Part shown: piece by piece, positions 219-46,386 of the stretch
Layout of the letters: every line of letters starts with the position of its first letter
Position numbering within the stretch: position 1 is the stretch's first letter
Source of the DNA: a virus
DNA length: 46,386 nt
Virus record (IMG/VR): IMGVR_UViG_3300035698_024756
Span: 1 to 46,386 of that record
Reading direction: 5' to 3' (one strand)
The notes under the pieces: model-generated
What the model saw: the letters and a program-made list of their open reading frames with translations, nothing else
Told to the model about the DNA's origin: nothing
The model's database searches: none
Position numbers and translations under genes: made by a program

Positions 219-299
219 AATGTAAAAATTTAGGTGAATGTTTACTTGAATTGTTCAGAAGTGATGTTGATCTCACCTCTTGATTTCGCACTCTTAGCG

Positions 300-600
300 T
301 ATGGATTGGATAAGTGTCAATGGGTCGGGTCATTTCAACTTTGAAATGACAGACCCGAAGGCAGATCCATCGGAGATGGATCGATGCCATTGACCGTTCC
401 ACCGGAGAGCAACTATGTTGCTCTCCATCCAGAAGCTATTTTAGTGAAATCATAGAGAGAGAGATACTAACGCATCGTCATATAGATTTCACCTCTTTAG
501 TGAAATCGGAAGCCGGAACGGGGCTTCAATGATCTGAGATGCGAAGATCATACACTTACTTTGCTACTATCAGTATCTATCTTGAAAGCTGAAAACGAGC
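300..600 (-). promoter_or_regulatory. Structured leader A (divergent copy of the three-way-junction element)
   Basis: This is most of the gene-free stretch 219-651. The outer stem GTCAATGG (316-323) pairs with CCATTGAC (387-394). It encloses arm 1 (322-356: GGGTC, internal loop, TCATTTCAA pairing with TTGAAATGA, GACCC) and arm 2 (364-382: GATCCATC pairing with GATGGATC). Downstream on the plus strand come a perfect 10-bp hairpin at 414-436, an AGCTA...TTAGTGA...GAGAGA block at 434-463, and hairpins at 485-507, 509-528 and 531-549. The same order of parts occurs at 1206-1400 and 5806-6000. It sits after the ssb terminator and before the small membrane gene, so it is probably a promoter-leader region on the minus strand. 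Confidence 0.6.
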
Positions 601-630
601 AAAAAAAAGGGGAGCCGAATGGCTCCCCTT
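601..630 (-). terminator. Intrinsic terminator of the ssb unit
   Basis: On the minus strand a perfect 10-bp stem (AAGGGGAGCC pairing with GGCTCCCCTT, loop of 4) is followed directly by eight U residues. It lies 22 bases beyond the ssb stop codon. Confidence 0.9.
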
Positions 631-651
631 GGGCTGATTTAACCGATGATG

Positions 652-1035
652 CTAGAATGGCAGATCATCTTGACCGGTACCAACTGCTGCTGGCTCCATT
701 GTATCGGAACCGTTATCGCCGGAAGGTTTCTTATCCAGCATAAACATTTCATCGGCAAGGATCTCGGTAACGTAAACCATCACCTTATCCTTATTTTCAT
801 ATTTCCGGTTTGAAATACGTCCAAGGATAGTAACATGAGATCCTTTGTGTAGAAAATCGCCGGCAATCTTTGCCAGACCATTCCAGCAAACTACGTTGTG
901 CCAGGTAGTAACGGTAGCTTTATCGGCTAAACGTTGAGAAGTGGCAAGTGAAAAGATGGTCTTAGTTTTTCCGGAATCAAACGTGTTTAAAACAGGATCT
1001 TTACCAAGGAAACCAGTTAAGAATACTTTATTCAT
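652..1035 (-). CDS. ssb: Single-stranded DNA-binding protein
   Basis: 127 residues. The N-terminal 105 or so residues form an OB-fold of the bacterial SSB type (opening MNKVFLTGFLGKDP, with the conserved WHNVVCW strand near residues 45-51). A short linker leads to the acidic tail DDLPF (residues 123-127), which recruits partner replication and repair proteins. It coats single-stranded DNA during phage replication. It is the only gene between a structured leader (1036-1598) and a strong terminator (601-630), so it is transcribed alone. The ATG at 1035 follows a hairpin-containing leader shared with the ardC-like gene. The linker is short compared with cellular SSBs, as is usual for phage versions. 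Confidence 0.93.
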   Translation of the reverse strand: MNKVFLTGFLGKDPVLNTFDSGKTKTIFSLATSQRLADKATVTTWHNVVCWNGLAKIAGDFLHKGSHVTILGRISNRKYENKDKVMVYVTEILADEMFMLDKKPSGDNGSDTMEPAAVGTGQDDLPF

Positions 1036-1090
1036 AATGTAACGCCGTTTGCCTAACGGACTTATTCAGGGGCATCAGGCACGCCCAATG
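1036..1090 (-). promoter_or_regulatory. ssb 5' leader, shared with the ardC-like gene
   Basis: About 55 bases directly upstream of the ssb ATG match 4921-4975 upstream of the ardC-like ATG at roughly three of every four positions. The shared order is GGGCG-GCC-GATG-CC, then AATAAGTCCG, then a small CCG...CGG hairpin about 10 bases before the ATG. In the ssb copy the hairpin is CCGTT-AGGCA-AACGG. A translational control element or protein-binding site in the mRNA leader is likely; autoregulation by SSB is one possibility. Confidence 0.55.
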
Positions 1091-1151
1091 TCCGGTGTTC
1101 TATAAAACCCAGACGTGAAAACAAGAGAATTTTTCTCTCGTTGTATGTCCT

Positions 1152-1378
1152 AAAAGGGAAGGAGATCCGGCAAGGATCGACTGACCAGCGGATCGATTGG
1201 AATAAGTCAAGGGGCAAGGTCATTTTGTTTTCAAAATGAATTGCCCGAAAGCGGCTTTCGACCAGGGGGAGAGAAAGCCAGCCCTTGACTTTTTCCAAAT
1301 TGGCAGGATCGGGGATCAGGACCGGGGCTTTTTTAGCCCCTGTCCTGATTTCCTGCCAATGGATCGATGTAGCTAACT
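1152..1378 (-). repeat. Structured leader B (three-way-junction element, near-identical to 5752-5977)
   Basis: This 227-base stretch matches 5752-5977 with only about a dozen differences. The plus-strand reading shows the outer stem GTCAAGGG (1206-1213) pairing with CCCTTGAC (1282-1289). Inside it, arm 1 is GGCAA...TTGCC with TCATTTTG pairing with CAAAATGA, and arm 2 is GGCTTTC pairing with GAAAGCC. A long nested hairpin at 1300-1359 (TTGGCAGGA with TCCTGCCAA, ATCAGGAC with GTCCTGAT, GGGGCT with AGCCCC) follows. It is non-coding and lies between the terminator at 1640-1669 and ssb. The apparent small reading frame here is discounted. Confidence 0.85.
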
Positions 1379-1437
1379 TTTAAGGGCAACGAGAGAAAAG
1401 ACAACACTAATTCAGAAGTTTCGATGGTTTCTTTTTG

Positions 1438-1476
1438 GTTCTTTTTCTTTGCCACTATTGATCAAAGAAAAAGAAC
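1438..1476. repeat. 14-bp perfect inverted repeat (GTTCTTTTTCTTTG)
   Basis: GTTCTTTTTCTTTG at 1438-1451 is the exact reverse complement of 1463-1476, with an 11-base loop. A 10-bp version stands at the equivalent place in leader C (6050-6077), and a related A/T-tract hairpin stands at 45709-45734. It may be an operator or a transcript hairpin of the leader module. Confidence 0.65.
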
Positions 1477-1575
1477 ATGAATCAACTTACTTTTAGGTTT
1501 CGCATTTATTTGATTGCTCATCTAATGTTCCTGAATTCATACAAATTGATCCAAAGGATTAATGGATGAATTTTT

Positions 1576-1598
1576 GATCCCCAATGGGATCTATATCG
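1576..1598 (-). promoter_or_regulatory. Conserved box plus hairpin at the head of leader B
   Basis: On the minus strand the block CACGTTTACGATATAG is followed by the 6-bp hairpin GATCCC-ATTG-GGGATC. Leader C has CACATTGCCGATATAG followed by a different hairpin, CTCCTT-TT-AAGGAG, at 6126-6139. The box is conserved while the stem has changed on both sides, which suggests a functional transcript hairpin near the start of the unit. No clean TAnnTTTG promoter was found here. Confidence 0.45.
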
Positions 1599-1639
1599 TA
1601 AACGTGAGAATATGATGCATTTTAGAAAATAGTTCGATC

Positions 1640-1669
1640 AAAAAAAGGAACCGGATTTTCACCGGCTCC
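1640..1669 (-). terminator. Intrinsic terminator of the radC-methyltransferase unit
   Basis: The minus-strand stem GGAGCCGG pairs with CCGGTTCC (one G-U pair, 7-base loop) and is followed by a run of seven T. It lies 11 bases after the stop of the last gene of the unit. Confidence 0.85.
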
Positions 1670-1679
1670 AATTGAAATG

Positions 1680-1910
1680 TTAATAGAGATACATATTGAT
1701 CCAATTTATGAAAGCTTCTTCTGTGGTGCAGTTACCATGAATCCATATCTGGTGTATCTCGGAAATGAATTCAGAAGCATCCTGACCCTGAAAGAACCAA
1801 TCATCACCAACTGCAATGTAACTGTACATTGTATTGATTTCGCATGATAAGCCGGCAATATTGTATTTACCGTGAAGCCAGCTATCGTTTAAGATCTCAG
1901 AATCAATCAT
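1680..1910 (-). CDS. Hypothetical protein, 76 residues
   Basis: Small acidic protein (starts MIDSEILNDSWLHG) rich in aromatic residues, with no motif I recognise. The start at 1910 is chosen because its ATG overlaps the upstream stop as ATGA, the coupling pattern used throughout this genome; a GTG or ATG further upstream would add nine residues. It is the last gene of the radC-ardC-methyltransferase unit and lies 11 bases before the terminator. The neighbours suggest an early, accessory role such as help in host takeover or anti-restriction, but this is only inference from position. Confidence 0.6.
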   Translation of the reverse strand: MIDSEILNDSWLHGKYNIAGLSCEINTMYSYIAVGDDWFFQGQDASEFISEIHQIWIHGNCTTEEAFINWINMYLY

Positions 1911-2260
1911 TGTGAACCTCCTTCCTCTGACATACACAATTCACGATATCTTTTATCAATTGTCTTTTGAAGCAGACGGGTAGGTGAATAATCAATCTGG
2001 ATCCTGCGGAAGATGGAAAATGGAGGTTGACCAATTTCCGGAAGCCTGGTAATAATGCACCATTTCAATACTGGCTTGCCGGTGATAGCATCCTGTTTGT
2101 ATGTAGGTTCGATTCGCATTAATTCAATCCCATTTTGCCAATACTTTAGAACGGCACCAAAATTATAATTACGACCTTCGAAGGGAAGTTGAATCTTCTT
2201 GAATCCGCGCTGATACAGTTCAGTCCATACGGATGTTTGTGTAATATCTAATCTGTTCAT
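1907..2260 (-). CDS. Hypothetical protein, 117 residues
   Basis: Basic, aromatic-rich soluble protein (MNRLDITQTSVWTELY...) with no recognised domain, signal peptide or membrane segment. Its ATG overlaps the previous stop (TTATGA) and its own stop overlaps the next start as ATGA, so it is translationally coupled on both sides. It belongs to the three-gene small-protein tail of the antirestriction and methyltransferase unit. Confidence 0.65.
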   Translation of the reverse strand: MNRLDITQTSVWTELYQRGFKKIQLPFEGRNYNFGAVLKYWQNGIELMRIEPTYKQDAITGKPVLKWCIITRLPEIGQPPFSIFRRIQIDYSPTRLLQKTIDKRYRELCMSEEGGSQ

Positions 2261-2478
2261 AATGATCCTCCCCCCTGTCTATTATTTTCGTGATAATGAA
2301 CATTGAAAGCAATGGGATCATGTTTTCGTAAAGCCTTTCCATATTTACCTCTGAAATACTTGAAGCGGTTTTTACCACCGATGATCCATTGATCCGAATC
2401 TTCAGGTGGGGAATAGTCATTTAGATGTTCTTCAACATCCTGTTTTGTTATTGCGTATGTTTTCATGGTGAAACTCAT
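2257..2478 (-). CDS. Hypothetical protein, 73 residues
   Basis: Starts MSFTMKTYAITKQD; the second Met (2466) is an equally possible start. The middle contains a pattern of the kind KYGKALRKHDPIAFNVHYHE, which I associate with small uncharacterised proteins on Bacteroidota mobile elements, though the family has no function known to me. It ends in a Gly-rich tail. It starts one base before the methyltransferase stop and overlaps the next gene by four bases, so it is an operon member. Confidence 0.6.
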   Translation of the reverse strand: MSFTMKTYAITKQDVEEHLNDYSPPEDSDQWIIGGKNRFKYFRGKYGKALRKHDPIAFNVHYHENNRQGGGSL

Positions 2479-2479
2479 T

Positions 2480-3949
2480 TCAATTAAGTGAATCGACTGA
2501 CTGTTTGATCAACCACTCCATTACGGGTGGGGTAACTGCGTTTCCAAGTTGTTTCACTTGTTTGCGCGAATCACCCAGAACGACATAATCAGAATCGAAA
2601 GCCATTGCCAGCTTTACTTCCTGTGGTTTGAGCATTCGGTAGTAACATTCCTCAACAGTTGGTTGTTGAAAATTGATCATTGAACACCGGTCTTTGGTTG
2701 TTACGGTACCAATGGGATCTGAAATGTGAGATGCCTGTGATGTGCCGTAATAGTAGGATATGAATGAATTCCATGAATCGTTGGAAACAATACCATATTT
2801 ACCAACAGTCATTTGTGTGCCGATAGGCTTTGTAATCTCTCTGGTTTTAGAGGTTTTGAATAGTTCCACAATAAATGGTTGTGATATTAAACCCATTGAT
2901 TGTCGTGTAGTTTGAGTTTGAAGCGGATCCATAAGATCGCGTACATTAGTAATGCAGGAGTGTTCAGACTTGGTAATAAAGTGAGGAACCACCAATCCCA
3001 TTGTTTGACGGGTTGCCTGTGTTTGAAGGGCTTCGAAAGTACTGCGAACCATGGGACCAACACGGGTGTGTTCAGCCAATGTGATAAAAGGGATCACTGA
3101 GAGATCTTTGTACTTATCCAATCCATATTGGATACGCCTTATGGTGTTATCAGCAAGTTTTATTTTGCGATCCCCTATTCTGGTACCTATATCATTCCAA
3201 TTAATACAATTGAAAGCTGCGTTGTAGTAAGGTTTAACGGTAGAAAAGCAGGAGGGGCAAGTATAGATATATTGGGTTTTGTATTTGCCTGATCGTTTTT
3301 CATTTTTCCATGTTTGTCTTGCATCGATATCCTTTTGACAGGAATTGCAGAAAGCCTTGGGTGTATATTCAAGATCAGGAGAATGATTGCCTTTTTTCCA
3401 GAATACGATATACAACCGATCTCTTGATTGTGGTGTTGGATGGAAGAACATGGAATTTGCAAACACTTTTTTGTGATTGTAACCAAGCAGATCCATTGCC
3501 TGTAGCCATGCAGGAAACATTGACCATTTAAGAGCATCTACTACATTTTCAACAATGATGATACGGTATTTGTGATATTCGGCGAACCTGGGAACATCCC
3601 ACATGGTTGCCCTTGATCTCTCGGCTTCTTCTGCCGGAGTTGTAAACATATTCATCTGAGGTGAAACATCAGATCTGCTTTTTGCAAGGGAATGATTGGT
3701 ACATTCCGGAGATGTAATCAGGATATCGGTAGAATGATAACGTCGTGGATCTACGCTGCTGATATCAGCACAATCGTGATCTGTTTCAGGAAAATTGGTG
3801 CTGTGAGTATCAATAGCCAATTTCCAATGGTTCATGGCTAATTTGACTTCAACTCCACCACCAATGGAGTTTGAATATTTGCGAACGCCCAGGGATGAAC
3901 CACCGGCTCCACAAAATTGATCTGTAACTGTGATGTACGATTTTTTCAT
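2480..3949 (-). CDS. DNA (cytosine-5) methyltransferase
   Basis: 489 residues from the ATG at 3949; a TTG three codons upstream is less likely. It transfers a methyl group from SAM to cytosine in DNA. Motif I is DQFCGAGGSSLGV (residues 10-22), the catalytic Cys lies in SPEC (80-83) instead of the usual PPCQ, ENV is at 134-136, SRDR at about 175-178 and the motif X-like GNAVTPPV near the end. A zinc-ribbon-like insert has CNSC (201-204) and CPSC (231-234). The target-recognition part contains two or three repeats of about 40 residues built on LQTQ-TRQ-MGL. It sits behind an ardC-like gene, so it probably protects phage DNA from host restriction. No cognate nuclease is present. Confidence 0.92.
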   Translation of the reverse strand: MKKSYITVTDQFCGAGGSSLGVRKYSNSIGGGVEVKLAMNHWKLAIDTHSTNFPETDHDCADISSVDPRRYHSTDILITSPECTNHSLAKSRSDVSPQMNMFTTPAEEAERSRATMWDVPRFAEYHKYRIIIVENVVDALKWSMFPAWLQAMDLLGYNHKKVFANSMFFHPTPQSRDRLYIVFWKKGNHSPDLEYTPKAFCNSCQKDIDARQTWKNEKRSGKYKTQYIYTCPSCFSTVKPYYNAAFNCINWNDIGTRIGDRKIKLADNTIRRIQYGLDKYKDLSVIPFITLAEHTRVGPMVRSTFEALQTQATRQTMGLVVPHFITKSEHSCITNVRDLMDPLQTQTTRQSMGLISQPFIVELFKTSKTREITKPIGTQMTVGKYGIVSNDSWNSFISYYYGTSQASHISDPIGTVTTKDRCSMINFQQPTVEECYYRMLKPQEVKLAMAFDSDYVVLGDSRKQVKQLGNAVTPPVMEWLIKQSVDSLN

Positions 3950-3992
3950 AGGTGACAAATATTAAGTTTGTGATATTAAAATTATAACTGAA

Positions 3993-4017
3993 ACGGGGCA
4001 TCCAAAGGACACCCCGT
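3993..4017 (-). terminator. Hairpin between the ardC-like gene and the methyltransferase
   Basis: The minus-strand stem ACGGGGTGTCC pairs with GGATGCCCCGT (11 bp with two G-U pairs, loop TTT) just after the ardC-like stop. The following tract is only moderately T-rich, so it may be a partial terminator, attenuator or mRNA-end stabiliser instead of a full stop. Confidence 0.6.
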
Positions 4018-4023
4018 CATGAT

Positions 4024-4920
4024 TTAAGCGGCAACGCTGGTTGATTCTTCGGTAACTGAAACAGCTTCCTCTTTAATATCGAGGATGTGATTTGCAGCTT
4101 TTTCAGCTCTTGAAGCAGCCCAAATAATCCATTGCTTGTTATCACGCAATTTACGTGACCAGCCGGTAATGTAGGAAGCAGAATTACGCTGGTTCCAATT
4201 ACATCCTGCAATGACTGTAAGGAATGAGGATCCAAGCTCGGCAACCAATTCTTCTTTGGAGTATTCCATGCTTCCGAAATAATCACCGGCACCTGTGAAT
4301 CTGTTCAACCTTTTGGAATGACCGGTTGAATGTGTTAATTCATGGAAAAGTACTTGGTAGTAGAAATCAGATGAATCAAACCATTTCATATCAGGCATGT
4401 GAACTAAATCCTGTGAGGGGGAATAGTAAGCACGATCATCGGTTGAAGTATTGACGATCTGTGGTGGTGAGGGCATTGCTTTGATAATATCTTCAGCTTC
4501 TTGATGACGTTGGAGATGCTTATTGGAAACCTCTTTGTTGAGATTGGCAATTTTCACATTGCCTGGATCATCGAAATCAGCCTGTTCAGAATTGAAAACA
4601 GTATAATATAGAAGGAAGAACTGCTTGGTAATCTTACCGGTATCAATATTTTCTTTTTCAGAAAACTTCCAGAAAACAACCGTGGTCCCTTTTTCACCTT
4701 TGCGGATCTGTCCACCGTTCTCACGGATTTGTTTGTATGTCGCAAATACTCTGGAAGTGTAAGGAGCCGAAGAGAGAATCAGGGTATTGATCCCGTTATA
4801 GAATCTACCTGTGATATTTACAGGTGATGGTACTTGCCAAAGTTTTTGCCATGATCCGGCAGTTTCCAAATTGGCAATGATTTTTTCAGTAATTGATGAA
4901 TAAATGTCGTTCATTTTCAT
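4024..4920 (-). CDS. ArdC-like antirestriction protein (ssDNA-binding domain plus zincin metallopeptidase)
   Basis: 298 residues from the ATG at 4920. The open frame extends to 4959, but that part is the conserved non-coding leader shared with ssb. Residues 1-115 match the ArdC N-terminal single-stranded DNA-binding domain (NDIYSSITEKII, the GINTLIL segment, GEKGTTVVFWK). Residues 160-240 form the metallopeptidase-like domain with HELTH (193-197) and downstream Glu residues in KEELVAELGS as the third zinc ligand. ArdC proteins of plasmids and phages bind incoming single-stranded DNA and counter type I restriction. The order radC - ardC - methyltransferase makes this unit look dedicated to establishing phage DNA in the cell. 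Confidence 0.88.
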   Translation of the reverse strand: MKMNDIYSSITEKIIANLETAGSWQKLWQVPSPVNITGRFYNGINTLILSSAPYTSRVFATYKQIRENGGQIRKGEKGTTVVFWKFSEKENIDTGKITKQFFLLYYTVFNSEQADFDDPGNVKIANLNKEVSNKHLQRHQEAEDIIKAMPSPPQIVNTSTDDRAYYSPSQDLVHMPDMKWFDSSDFYYQVLFHELTHSTGHSKRLNRFTGAGDYFGSMEYSKEELVAELGSSFLTVIAGCNWNQRNSASYITGWSRKLRDNKQWIIWAASRAEKAANHILDIKEEAVSVTEESTSVAA

Positions 4921-4975
4921 AGTAAAATGCCGTTGCCCTGCGGACTTATTAAGGAGCATCTGGCTCGCCCAGTTT
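4921..4975 (-). promoter_or_regulatory. 5' leader of the ardC-like gene, shared with ssb
   Basis: This stretch aligns with 1036-1090 in front of ssb, sharing AATAAGTCCG, a CCG...CGG hairpin and the flanking GGGCG-GCC-GATG-CC block. It overlaps the region between the radC stop and the ardC-like ATG, so it acts in the middle of an operon and is more likely a translational or processing signal than a promoter. Confidence 0.5.
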
Positions 4976-4986
4976 GTAAATTAATA

Positions 4987-5679
4987 TTACATTTTGCCTT
5001 CATCGGCAAAAGAGAAATAGTTATTATCTGTAATAATCAAATGATCCAGGACTGATATTTCAAGCAATAAACCAGCATCTTTTAATTTATTGGTAATATG
5101 AATATCAGATTCACTGGGAATGGTGTTACCGCTTGGATGATTATGGGATAAAATGATGCCGGCGGCATAGTTTTCAAGTGCAATCTTAAAAACCTTTTTA
5201 GGATTGACAACTGTTCCAGAAAGCCCACCTTCACTTATTTTATGAATTGAAATAACTTTGTTGGAACGAGTGAGAAGGATAACATAAAATTGCTCATATG
5301 GTTGATCGGTCAGGTATTTTTTTAGGATAGTGGCAGCTTCGCTGGACTGGGAAATTTTAGTGGTTAAATCAGAATCAGCAAATGAAATCCTTCTTGTTAA
5401 CTCAAAAGATGACATGAGTGAAAGCGCTTTAAATTTTCCAATACCAGGAAATTTAGAAAGATCGGAAAGACTGGCTTTGGAAAGCTTAATAAGGGAGTTG
5501 TCAAAAGCAGAGAAAAGGTTGCGAATAGAATCAATTGGACAATTACGTCCGATAATAATTGAAATCAATTCAACATTAGATAGAGAATGTTTGCCTTGGA
5601 GCAATAATTTCTCGGATGGTTGATCATCTTCAGCCCACCTACTGATAGGCAATGTTTTAAAATAATTGTTTGTTTTCAT
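4987..5679 (-). CDS. radC: RadC-family JAB/MPN domain protein
   Basis: 230 residues from the ATG at 5679; eleven further in-frame codons lie upstream but overlap a TTTTGC-TTC-GCAAAA hairpin just before this ATG. Residues 70-90 form a helix-hairpin-helix-like segment (FPGIGKFKA). The C-terminal half is the RadC/JAB metal-binding fold with His179, His181 (HNHPSG) and Asp192. RadC proteins are frequent on phages and conjugative elements, where they travel with antirestriction genes; the biochemical role is not settled. It is the first gene after leader C. Length and motifs are typical of the family. Confidence 0.92.
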   Translation of the reverse strand: MKTNNYFKTLPISRWAEDDQPSEKLLLQGKHSLSNVELISIIIGRNCPIDSIRNLFSAFDNSLIKLSKASLSDLSKFPGIGKFKALSLMSSFELTRRISFADSDLTTKISQSSEAATILKKYLTDQPYEQFYVILLTRSNKVISIHKISEGGLSGTVVNPKKVFKIALENYAAGIILSHNHPSGNTIPSESDIHITNKLKDAGLLLEISVLDHLIITDNNYFSFADEGKM

Positions 5680-5751
5680 AGAGTAATTGTTTTGCGAAGC
5701 AAAAAGCTCCAATGAAAATCAAAAGGCTTTTCCTCTCGATTATGAAAACAA

Positions 5752-5977
5752 AAAAGGGAAGGAGATCCGGCAAGGATCGACTGACCAGCGGATCGATTGG
5801 AATAAGTCAAGGGGCAAGGTCATTTTGATATCAAAATGAATTGCCCGAAAGCGGATTTCGACCTGGGGGGGAGAAAGCCAGCCCTTGACTTTTTCCAAAT
5901 TGGCAGGATCGGGGATCAGGGCCGGGGCCTTTATGCCCCTGTCCTGATTTCCTGCCAATGAATCGATGTAGCTAACT
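5752..5977 (-). repeat. Structured leader C (near-identical to leader B at 1152-1378)
   Basis: Same three-way-junction plan as leader B: outer stem GTCAAGGG (5806-5813) pairing with CCCTTGAC (5882-5889), arm 1 with the palindrome CATTTTGATATCAAAATG, arm 2 GGATTTC/GAAAGCC (one mismatch), and a nested hairpin at 5900-5958. It fills most of the gene-free stretch 5680-6240, between the terminator at 6168-6197 and radC. The two copies are 4.6 kb apart in the same orientation, so recombination between them could delete the radC-methyltransferase unit. Confidence 0.85.
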
Positions 5978-6049
5978 TAGTGAGAAATCGAGAGAAAAGT
6001 ATAGACTACCCTTGAATTATCTACCACTTAATGGTTTCTTTTTGCGTGG

Positions 6050-6077
6050 TTTTTCTTTGCCATTAATCAAAGAAAAA
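6050..6077. repeat. Inverted repeat in leader C (TTTTTCTTTG/CAAAGAAAAA)
   Basis: A 10-bp stem with an 8-base loop, standing where leader B has its 14-bp version (1438-1476). The flanking GTTTCTTTTTG and AGAACAT bases are also conserved between the two leaders. Confidence 0.6.
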
Positions 6078-6125
6078 GAACATAGACCTTCATTGAATGA
6101 AACACTTGTTGAAGCAATGAAGAAT

Positions 6126-6147: not shown

Positions 6148-6167
6148 GCAATGTGAAAATATGCTGG

Positions 6168-6197
6168 AAAAAAAAACCCTGCCGGTTGGGGCAGGGC
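6168..6197 (-). terminator. Intrinsic terminator after the capsid-gene unit
   Basis: The minus-strand stem CCCTGCC pairs with GGCAGGG, followed by nine T. It lies about 45 bases beyond the stop of the last virion-type gene (6241). Confidence 0.9.
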
Positions 6198-6240
6198 TTT
6201 TCACGAACAAAACACCTATGAAGAACACGGACAAAGTATC

Positions 6241-46246: not shown

Positions 46247-46386
46247 TCATGCTCCCCTCCTATCTTCAAAAGCAATGATGCCACAAATTCCAAGGAACGT
46301 AATAGTAACTACAATGCTAACAATCATGATGGCTGTCTTGGCATCAGATGGGATGAAAACAAGTAGCATCAGGCAAGTAGCAAGGA
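46247..46386 (-). CDS. Small two-helix membrane protein, 3' part (wraps to left end)
   Basis: This is the right-end copy of the gene that starts at base 218. It is open from the edge of the window to a TGA at 46247-46249, adding the codons for RRGA after the repeat boundary. Only this copy carries the stop codon, so the complete gene exists only on the circular molecule. It is followed about 70 bases downstream by a hairpin and T-run terminator. It is a real gene and not a shadow because the protein has a clean membrane topology and fits the spacing from leader to gene to terminator seen for the neighbouring units. Confidence 0.7.
   Translation of the reverse strand, partial: LATCLMLLVFIPSDAKTAIMIVSIVVTITFLGICGIIAFEDRRGA
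46260..46386. repeat. Right copy of 127-bp exact terminal direct repeat
   Basis: Exact duplicate of bases 1-127. Joining the two ends gives a circle of 46,259 bp. A circularly permuted headful-packaged genome or a true circular molecule would both produce this pattern; a real 127-bp terminal redundancy is less likely but not excluded. Confidence 0.93.

Follow-up and report, generated by a model that had tools for sequence, protein, structure and literature searches.

The closest described systems to the element reported here, a folded structure present in three copies on a 46,386-base IMG/VR virus record (IMGVR_UViG_3300035698_024756, analysed whole and called the window), come from phages, Proteobacteria and conjugative plasmids. 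The put RNAs of the lambdoid phage HK022 are folded, much shorter two-hairpin RNAs found at the start of early transcripts in more than one copy per genome, and the leader of T4 gene 32 contains a pseudoknot, a compact RNA fold just upstream of the start codon for the single-stranded DNA (ssDNA)-binding protein SSB. The radC RNA motif (RF01754) is a structured candidate cis-regulatory RNA listed for Proteobacteria, and STAXI (RF01728), from Enterobacteriales, has ssb, antirestriction, integrase and topoisomerase genes as neighbours, and a role in ssDNA was considered for it too (PMC2864571). Frpo promoters occur as several folded copies in one orientation upstream of ssb and anti-defence genes in plasmid leading regions, act during ssDNA transfer and carry RNA polymerase boxes in their stem (PMC11541004).

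The element shares with radC RNA a position upstream of radC-type genes and with STAXI a niche near ssb and antirestriction genes. However, its named carriers are Bacteroidetes/Bacteroidales, not Proteobacteria, and STAXI consists of pseudoknots repeated in tandem, whereas the element is one nested branched fold and the second motif reported here (motif II) is single. A direct search of 10 records with the RF01754 model gave no match over the cut-off and none at all in the window, and STAXI gave no match in all-Rfam scans of the window and 11 loci of relatives; since neither model matches, the element is not a member of either family. Those scans (Rfam 15, at gathering and at loose E-values) returned chance-like matches only, in agreement with the original prediction that the element is not of a described class. 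Several folded copies in one orientation upstream of ssb and anti-defence genes are a likeness to Frpo/ssi, but the setting is not a conjugative leading region, as terminase, head and tail genes are present in the window. Like put RNAs, the element is folded and stands at the front of phage units in several copies per genome; it is far longer and most cassettes have their own copy, a difference drawn by description only. Motif II is comparable to the T4 gene 32 leader in being a compact fold before an ssb start codon, but ardC, radC and unrelated genes have it in front of them as well. No description of the element was found in the open-access literature, the large microbiome RNA candidate lists (PMC8040213) lying outside this comparison. 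The element is a family of structured candidate cis-regulatory elements of mobile DNA, new as a family, known as a kind, whose function we infer.

The nearest relatives revealed that the element is larger than the three copies had suggested. In coding orientation, helix P0 encloses P1 and then P6, P1 encloses P2 and P3, and P3 encloses P5 and P4. The genes that follow lie on the minus strand, which is therefore the candidate leader strand. The three copies, each of which was in the training set of the model that scored it (cmsearch), are as follows.

268 to 472, minus strand: element copy A, P0 to P0, with its core (P1 to P1) at 293-442; 104.6 bits
1126 to 1404, minus strand: element copy B, core 1184-1379; 136.1 bits; upstream of ssb
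5726 to 6002, minus strand: element copy C, core 5784-5978; 135.3 bits; followed by radC, ardC and the C5 methylase gene

The copy positions first proposed were recovered, together with their outer stem of 8 base pairs (bp), in which GTCAATGG at 316 pairs with CCATTGAC at 387 in copy A and GTCAAGGG at 1206 and 5806 pairs with CCCTTGAC at 1282 and 5882 in copies B and C. This stem is P3, nested in P1 (TTAGC-x-ATCG / CGAT-CC-GCTAA), which is itself nested in P0 (13 bp, TTTTCTCTCGTTG/CAACGAGAGAAAA, in copy B; TGATTTC/GAAATCA in copy A). Copies B and C are nearly identical, as had been claimed (88% identity across 339 bases, flanks included), and A differs from B in its letters with the pairing kept. 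The fold of the original prediction is conserved, but its extent was too small and P0 and P1 had to be added. The AGCTA...GAGAGA tail exists in sequence, though not as single-stranded motifs, AGCTA forming one side of P1 and GAGAGA one side of P0. Arm 2 (P5) and the strong hairpin (P2), which had been given as fixed parts, are both optional and missing from the shortest relatives; P2, P5 and P6 are variable or absent across the family. Folding of the coding strand of A, B and C went far beyond that of shuffled sequences (z -7.9, -6.4 and -6.5, respectively). A coding role for the element was considered and rejected: few copies could be read through in any frame, and the copies had no frame in common.

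The element is a conserved, covarying structure. The statistical test of covariation that the original prediction had proposed was run and passed. In a MAFFT alignment of ten copies, 35 cells were changed on both sides and still paired, compared to 13.7 after shuffling and at most 8 with slid partners. The alignment of 44 copies held 235 such cells (shuffled mean 80; slid partners at most 61) with a covariation score of 0.408 (shuffled 0.139; slid at most 0.097), and contigs found later held 205 (shuffled 64; slid 71); both of these alignments were made by fitting copies to the model, which biases them in its favour. RNAalifold recovered P1, P3 and P4 with no structure supplied. P0 was never in the covariance model and therefore gives the cleanest test of pairing: among 30 new full-length copies, the 5' flank paired with its own 3' flank at 22.4 compared to 17.2 with the flanks of others (0 of 20,000 permutations). 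The copies are related by descent, and these statistics are not formal probabilities.

The covariance model and search of relatives that had been suggested were also carried out. An exact-pattern scan of reference genomes (a single scan) identified three copies in two Bacteroidetes metagenome-assembled genomes (MAGs); a terminase adjoins one of them, and that locus is a prophage of the same kind as the window. The first covariance model (R1), built from ten copies including A, B and C, recovered 16 confident copies in these phage and MAG records, six of them new. It matched nine of the 295 genomes searched in the same order (one known before), and a second model matched one of 395 genomes in a phylum-wide sample, the one already known; these rates are lower bounds, as thresholds and filters differed from those of single-record searches. 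Overall, 44 copies were found at E-values up to 0.012, flanking records included, in three IMG/VR phages and Bacteroidales genomes. One of these phages, IMGVR_UViG_3300009127_000111, has a terminase 81% identical to that of the window and two copies, upstream of ssb and radC; IMGVR_UViG_3300022555_003155 has further copies upstream of radC and of an open reading frame (ORF) for a 56-amino-acid protein. Prophages with good coverage have between three and five copies each. Independently, a search of viral contigs by motif II alone gave 24 contigs, 23 of them new, and 13 of the 23 carry the element at E ≤ 0.001, in several cases immediately before motif II. Phage and plasmid collections searched by BLASTN with the element contained no copy; the short matches obtained were to the T-rich flank with its hairpin or due to chance. 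The first DNA pattern tried in viral contigs (GTCAADGGNNNRRGTCATTT) was rejected, as none of its 36 contigs was a relative on inspection.

Where the source organism of a copy is named, it is a Bacteroidetes/Bacteroidales MAG, and further genomes belong to the same order. The carriers are phages, prophages or VapE-primase islands. Several genomes have, beside the element, genes for a primase (VapE-like or DUF5906), an HTH_17 protein, a relative of a protein encoded beside the terminase of these phages, and AbiE; we take the loci with such primases to be satellite-like islands. In four of these (L266, L267, L269, L277; VapE/DUF5906 primase, HTH_17) the element occurs with radC, AbiE genes are present in L266 and L267, and some of the four contain the relative of the terminase-neighbour protein. 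Near element copies, L277 (6764-10030, plus strand) and L271 (1334-4723, minus strand) encode large proteins of one family, the L277 member having PLD-like, SNF2 and helicase domains; these are possibly defence genes. The original prediction included neither motif II nor the fact that prophages and satellite-like islands have the element too.

Same-strand genes follow the element closely. In 50 of 53 copies a same-strand, ATG-started ORF of at least 50 codons began no more than 260 nucleotides (nt) away, mostly 34-79 nt. The rate for such an ORF at random positions is already 0.57, and the tight spacing is therefore the stronger point. Downstream genes include radC-like, ArdC-like and ssb genes, a 56-amino-acid family (IYYPGF/Y), a 150-amino-acid family and others, which supports the proposed repeated position before several phage transcription units. 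The conserved family of about 56 amino acids is often encoded first behind the element (L266:3966-4136, minus strand; L264:2018-2188, plus strand; L268:2402-2635, plus strand), and the one member searched had no Pfam match. Near-identical copies B and C before different genes, and cassettes that differ between phages, would suit a site of recombination or cassette exchange, or a cruciform, with no role in expression. However, copies before radC are alike across prophages, as are those before the 56-amino-acid protein, and the start-codon spacing would be hard to explain, making such a site very improbable.

Motif II is a 42-nt two-hairpin motif (GGCGWGCCAGATGCC-N-AAAYAAGTC-YNC-AGGGCA-GNRGC) found right before start codons, with a gap of a few nt, at ssb and ardC in the window and at radC, ardC and other genes in relatives.

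1044 to 1086, minus strand: motif II at ssb, a pair of hairpins whose loops are complementary, 8 nt ahead of the start codon
4929 to 4970, minus strand: motif II at ardC, ahead of the start codon (the ATG at 4920)

The whole motif showed 26 covarying cells compared to 6.5 in shuffled alignments, and the second hairpin covaries. In every one of the 26 copies the GCC of loop 1 matches the GGC of loop 2 as its complement, which is suggestive of a contact between the loops and not proof of it because both are invariant. Motif II had no match in Rfam 15, and it is also present singly, without the large element. The self-contained fold of the element, closed by P0, might also be that of a separate small RNA or processed transcript acting in trans and merely located upstream of genes, but its constant orientation, the short distance to start codons, the several copies per genome and the tandem arrangement with motif II all speak against this, and we give it very little credence.

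Terminator-like hairpins lie upstream of many copies of the family, and a copy with its gene therefore looks like a self-contained cassette. The original prediction placed each copy of the window after a terminator; this held in the terminator scan for A and B, but for C only by reading the sequence.

607 to 630, minus strand: terminator-like hairpin after ssb and upstream of copy A (terminator scan)
1647 to 1669, minus strand: terminator-like hairpin upstream of copy B (terminator scan)
about 6165 to 6205, minus strand: GC hairpin with a run of nine T behind it, preceding copy C (read by eye; absent from the scan list)

A further hairpin, CTTTTTCTTTG...CAAAGAAAAAG followed by CAAAAAGAAA (window 1438-1478 and 6031-6081), recurs upstream of many copies, about 50-100 nt before the element, and is possibly part of the promoter region. 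Units headed by the element after a terminator, several copies per genome and helix sequence (GUCAA/UUGAC) conserved beyond the needs of pairing are all features that a put-like antitermination RNA would have, acting in cis to modify RNA polymerase so that terminators between cassettes are read through. Most cassettes, however, have their own copy and many their own terminator, when one upstream copy would do for read-through, and we consider this mechanism unlikely.

Covarying structure, a short distance upstream of same-strand genes and the lack of translation are the general marks of a cis-regulatory leader, and all are found here. Position and motif II argue for action at the level of the mRNA, and from its position the element is probably, with real room for doubt, a new cis-acting leader RNA controlling the expression of phage and satellite gene cassettes. 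Of the two forms originally proposed, a leader RNA or a DNA cruciform, the conserved covarying structure before several units fits either and the position favours the leader RNA. Each copy would be the structured 5' leader of one cassette's mRNA, the cassette having the order terminator, short upstream stretch, element and gene. The P0-closed fold would pair the front end of the transcript beside the translation start, with the start codon some 34-79 nt after the element and often abutted by motif II. A phage or host RNA-binding factor would probably mediate the effect, with motif II as a switch at the start codon, and the outcome may be timed expression of anti-restriction and establishment genes.

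Several points weigh against a leader RNA. The regulatory step, a cis action on translation or mRNA stability after transcription has started, is one that we only infer. Bacteroidetes promoter boxes differ from those of sigma-70, and no Bacteroidetes-type promoter was identified upstream of the element. In 31 of the first 40 copies the better fold is that of the template strand, and composition accounts for most of this but not all (shuffles reproduce -4.2 of the -5.9 kcal/mol strand difference). A strand-symmetric count inside Watson-Crick helices gave 8 G.T versus 21 A.C on the coding strand, near the shuffled ratio and with no preference for G.U; tRNAs were unusable as a control for such wobble counts, as ARAGORN omits mismatches. 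The better-folded template strand, the 46 A.C versus 14 G.T on the coding strand of P0 (null ratio 1.7) and the gene company of ssb, DNA methylase and anti-restriction genes led by several copies, as for Frpo (PMC11541004), would all be expected of a DNA-level element whose template strand folds as ssDNA and acts as a promoter or as a site for priming, like Frpo/ssi in conjugative leading regions. We think this improbable, as the element is found in tailed phages and satellite-like islands, no relaxase was seen among the genes examined, the strand asymmetry is mostly compositional, motif II close to start codons points to mRNA, and later-found copies favour G.U on the coding strand (68 G.U versus 13 A.C, a count biased since the model favours G.U). 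Tailed phages, moreover, inject double-stranded DNA. It is likewise doubtful that the element is a phage-borne counterpart of plasmid leading-region control, possibly by ssDNA promoters in double-stranded DNA phages. If true, one shared folded element in tailed phages and satellite-like islands would put the anti-restriction and establishment gene set under common control.

The window carries a 127-base direct terminal repeat (1-127 and 46260-46386), so the contig is probably circular and complete, and the small membrane-protein gene that follows copy A would then cross the contig ends. It belongs to a tailed phage with recognised terminase, head protease, tape-measure and tail genes; its terminase shares about 30% identity with the terminase of a Polaribacter phage and 23-31% with those of Flavobacterium phages. 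The genes led by copies B and C lie at one end.

652 to 1035, minus strand: ssb gene, behind copy B (Pfam SSB, 1.1e-24)
2480 to 3958, minus strand: C5 cytosine DNA methylase gene (domain match)
4024 to 4920, minus strand: ArdC-like anti-restriction gene (ArdcN and zincin MPTase-PolyVal domain matches); a search with the ArdC protein gave no relative
4987 to 5679, minus strand: radC-like gene (JAB domain), behind copy C (Pfam RadC, 2.9e-41); start set by the ATG read in the sequence

Two covarying families absent from Rfam 15, the element and the start-codon motif II, are thus present in a branch of phages whose regulation has hardly been studied. The element marks jointly controlled genes of phages and islands (anti-restriction, ssb, radC and small unknown proteins) and, because it marks genes controlled together, can guide searches for counter-defence genes that are still unknown. 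In Bacteroidales, where ribosome-binding sites of the classical type are weak, the element also gives a way to test how anti-restriction genes are controlled by phages.

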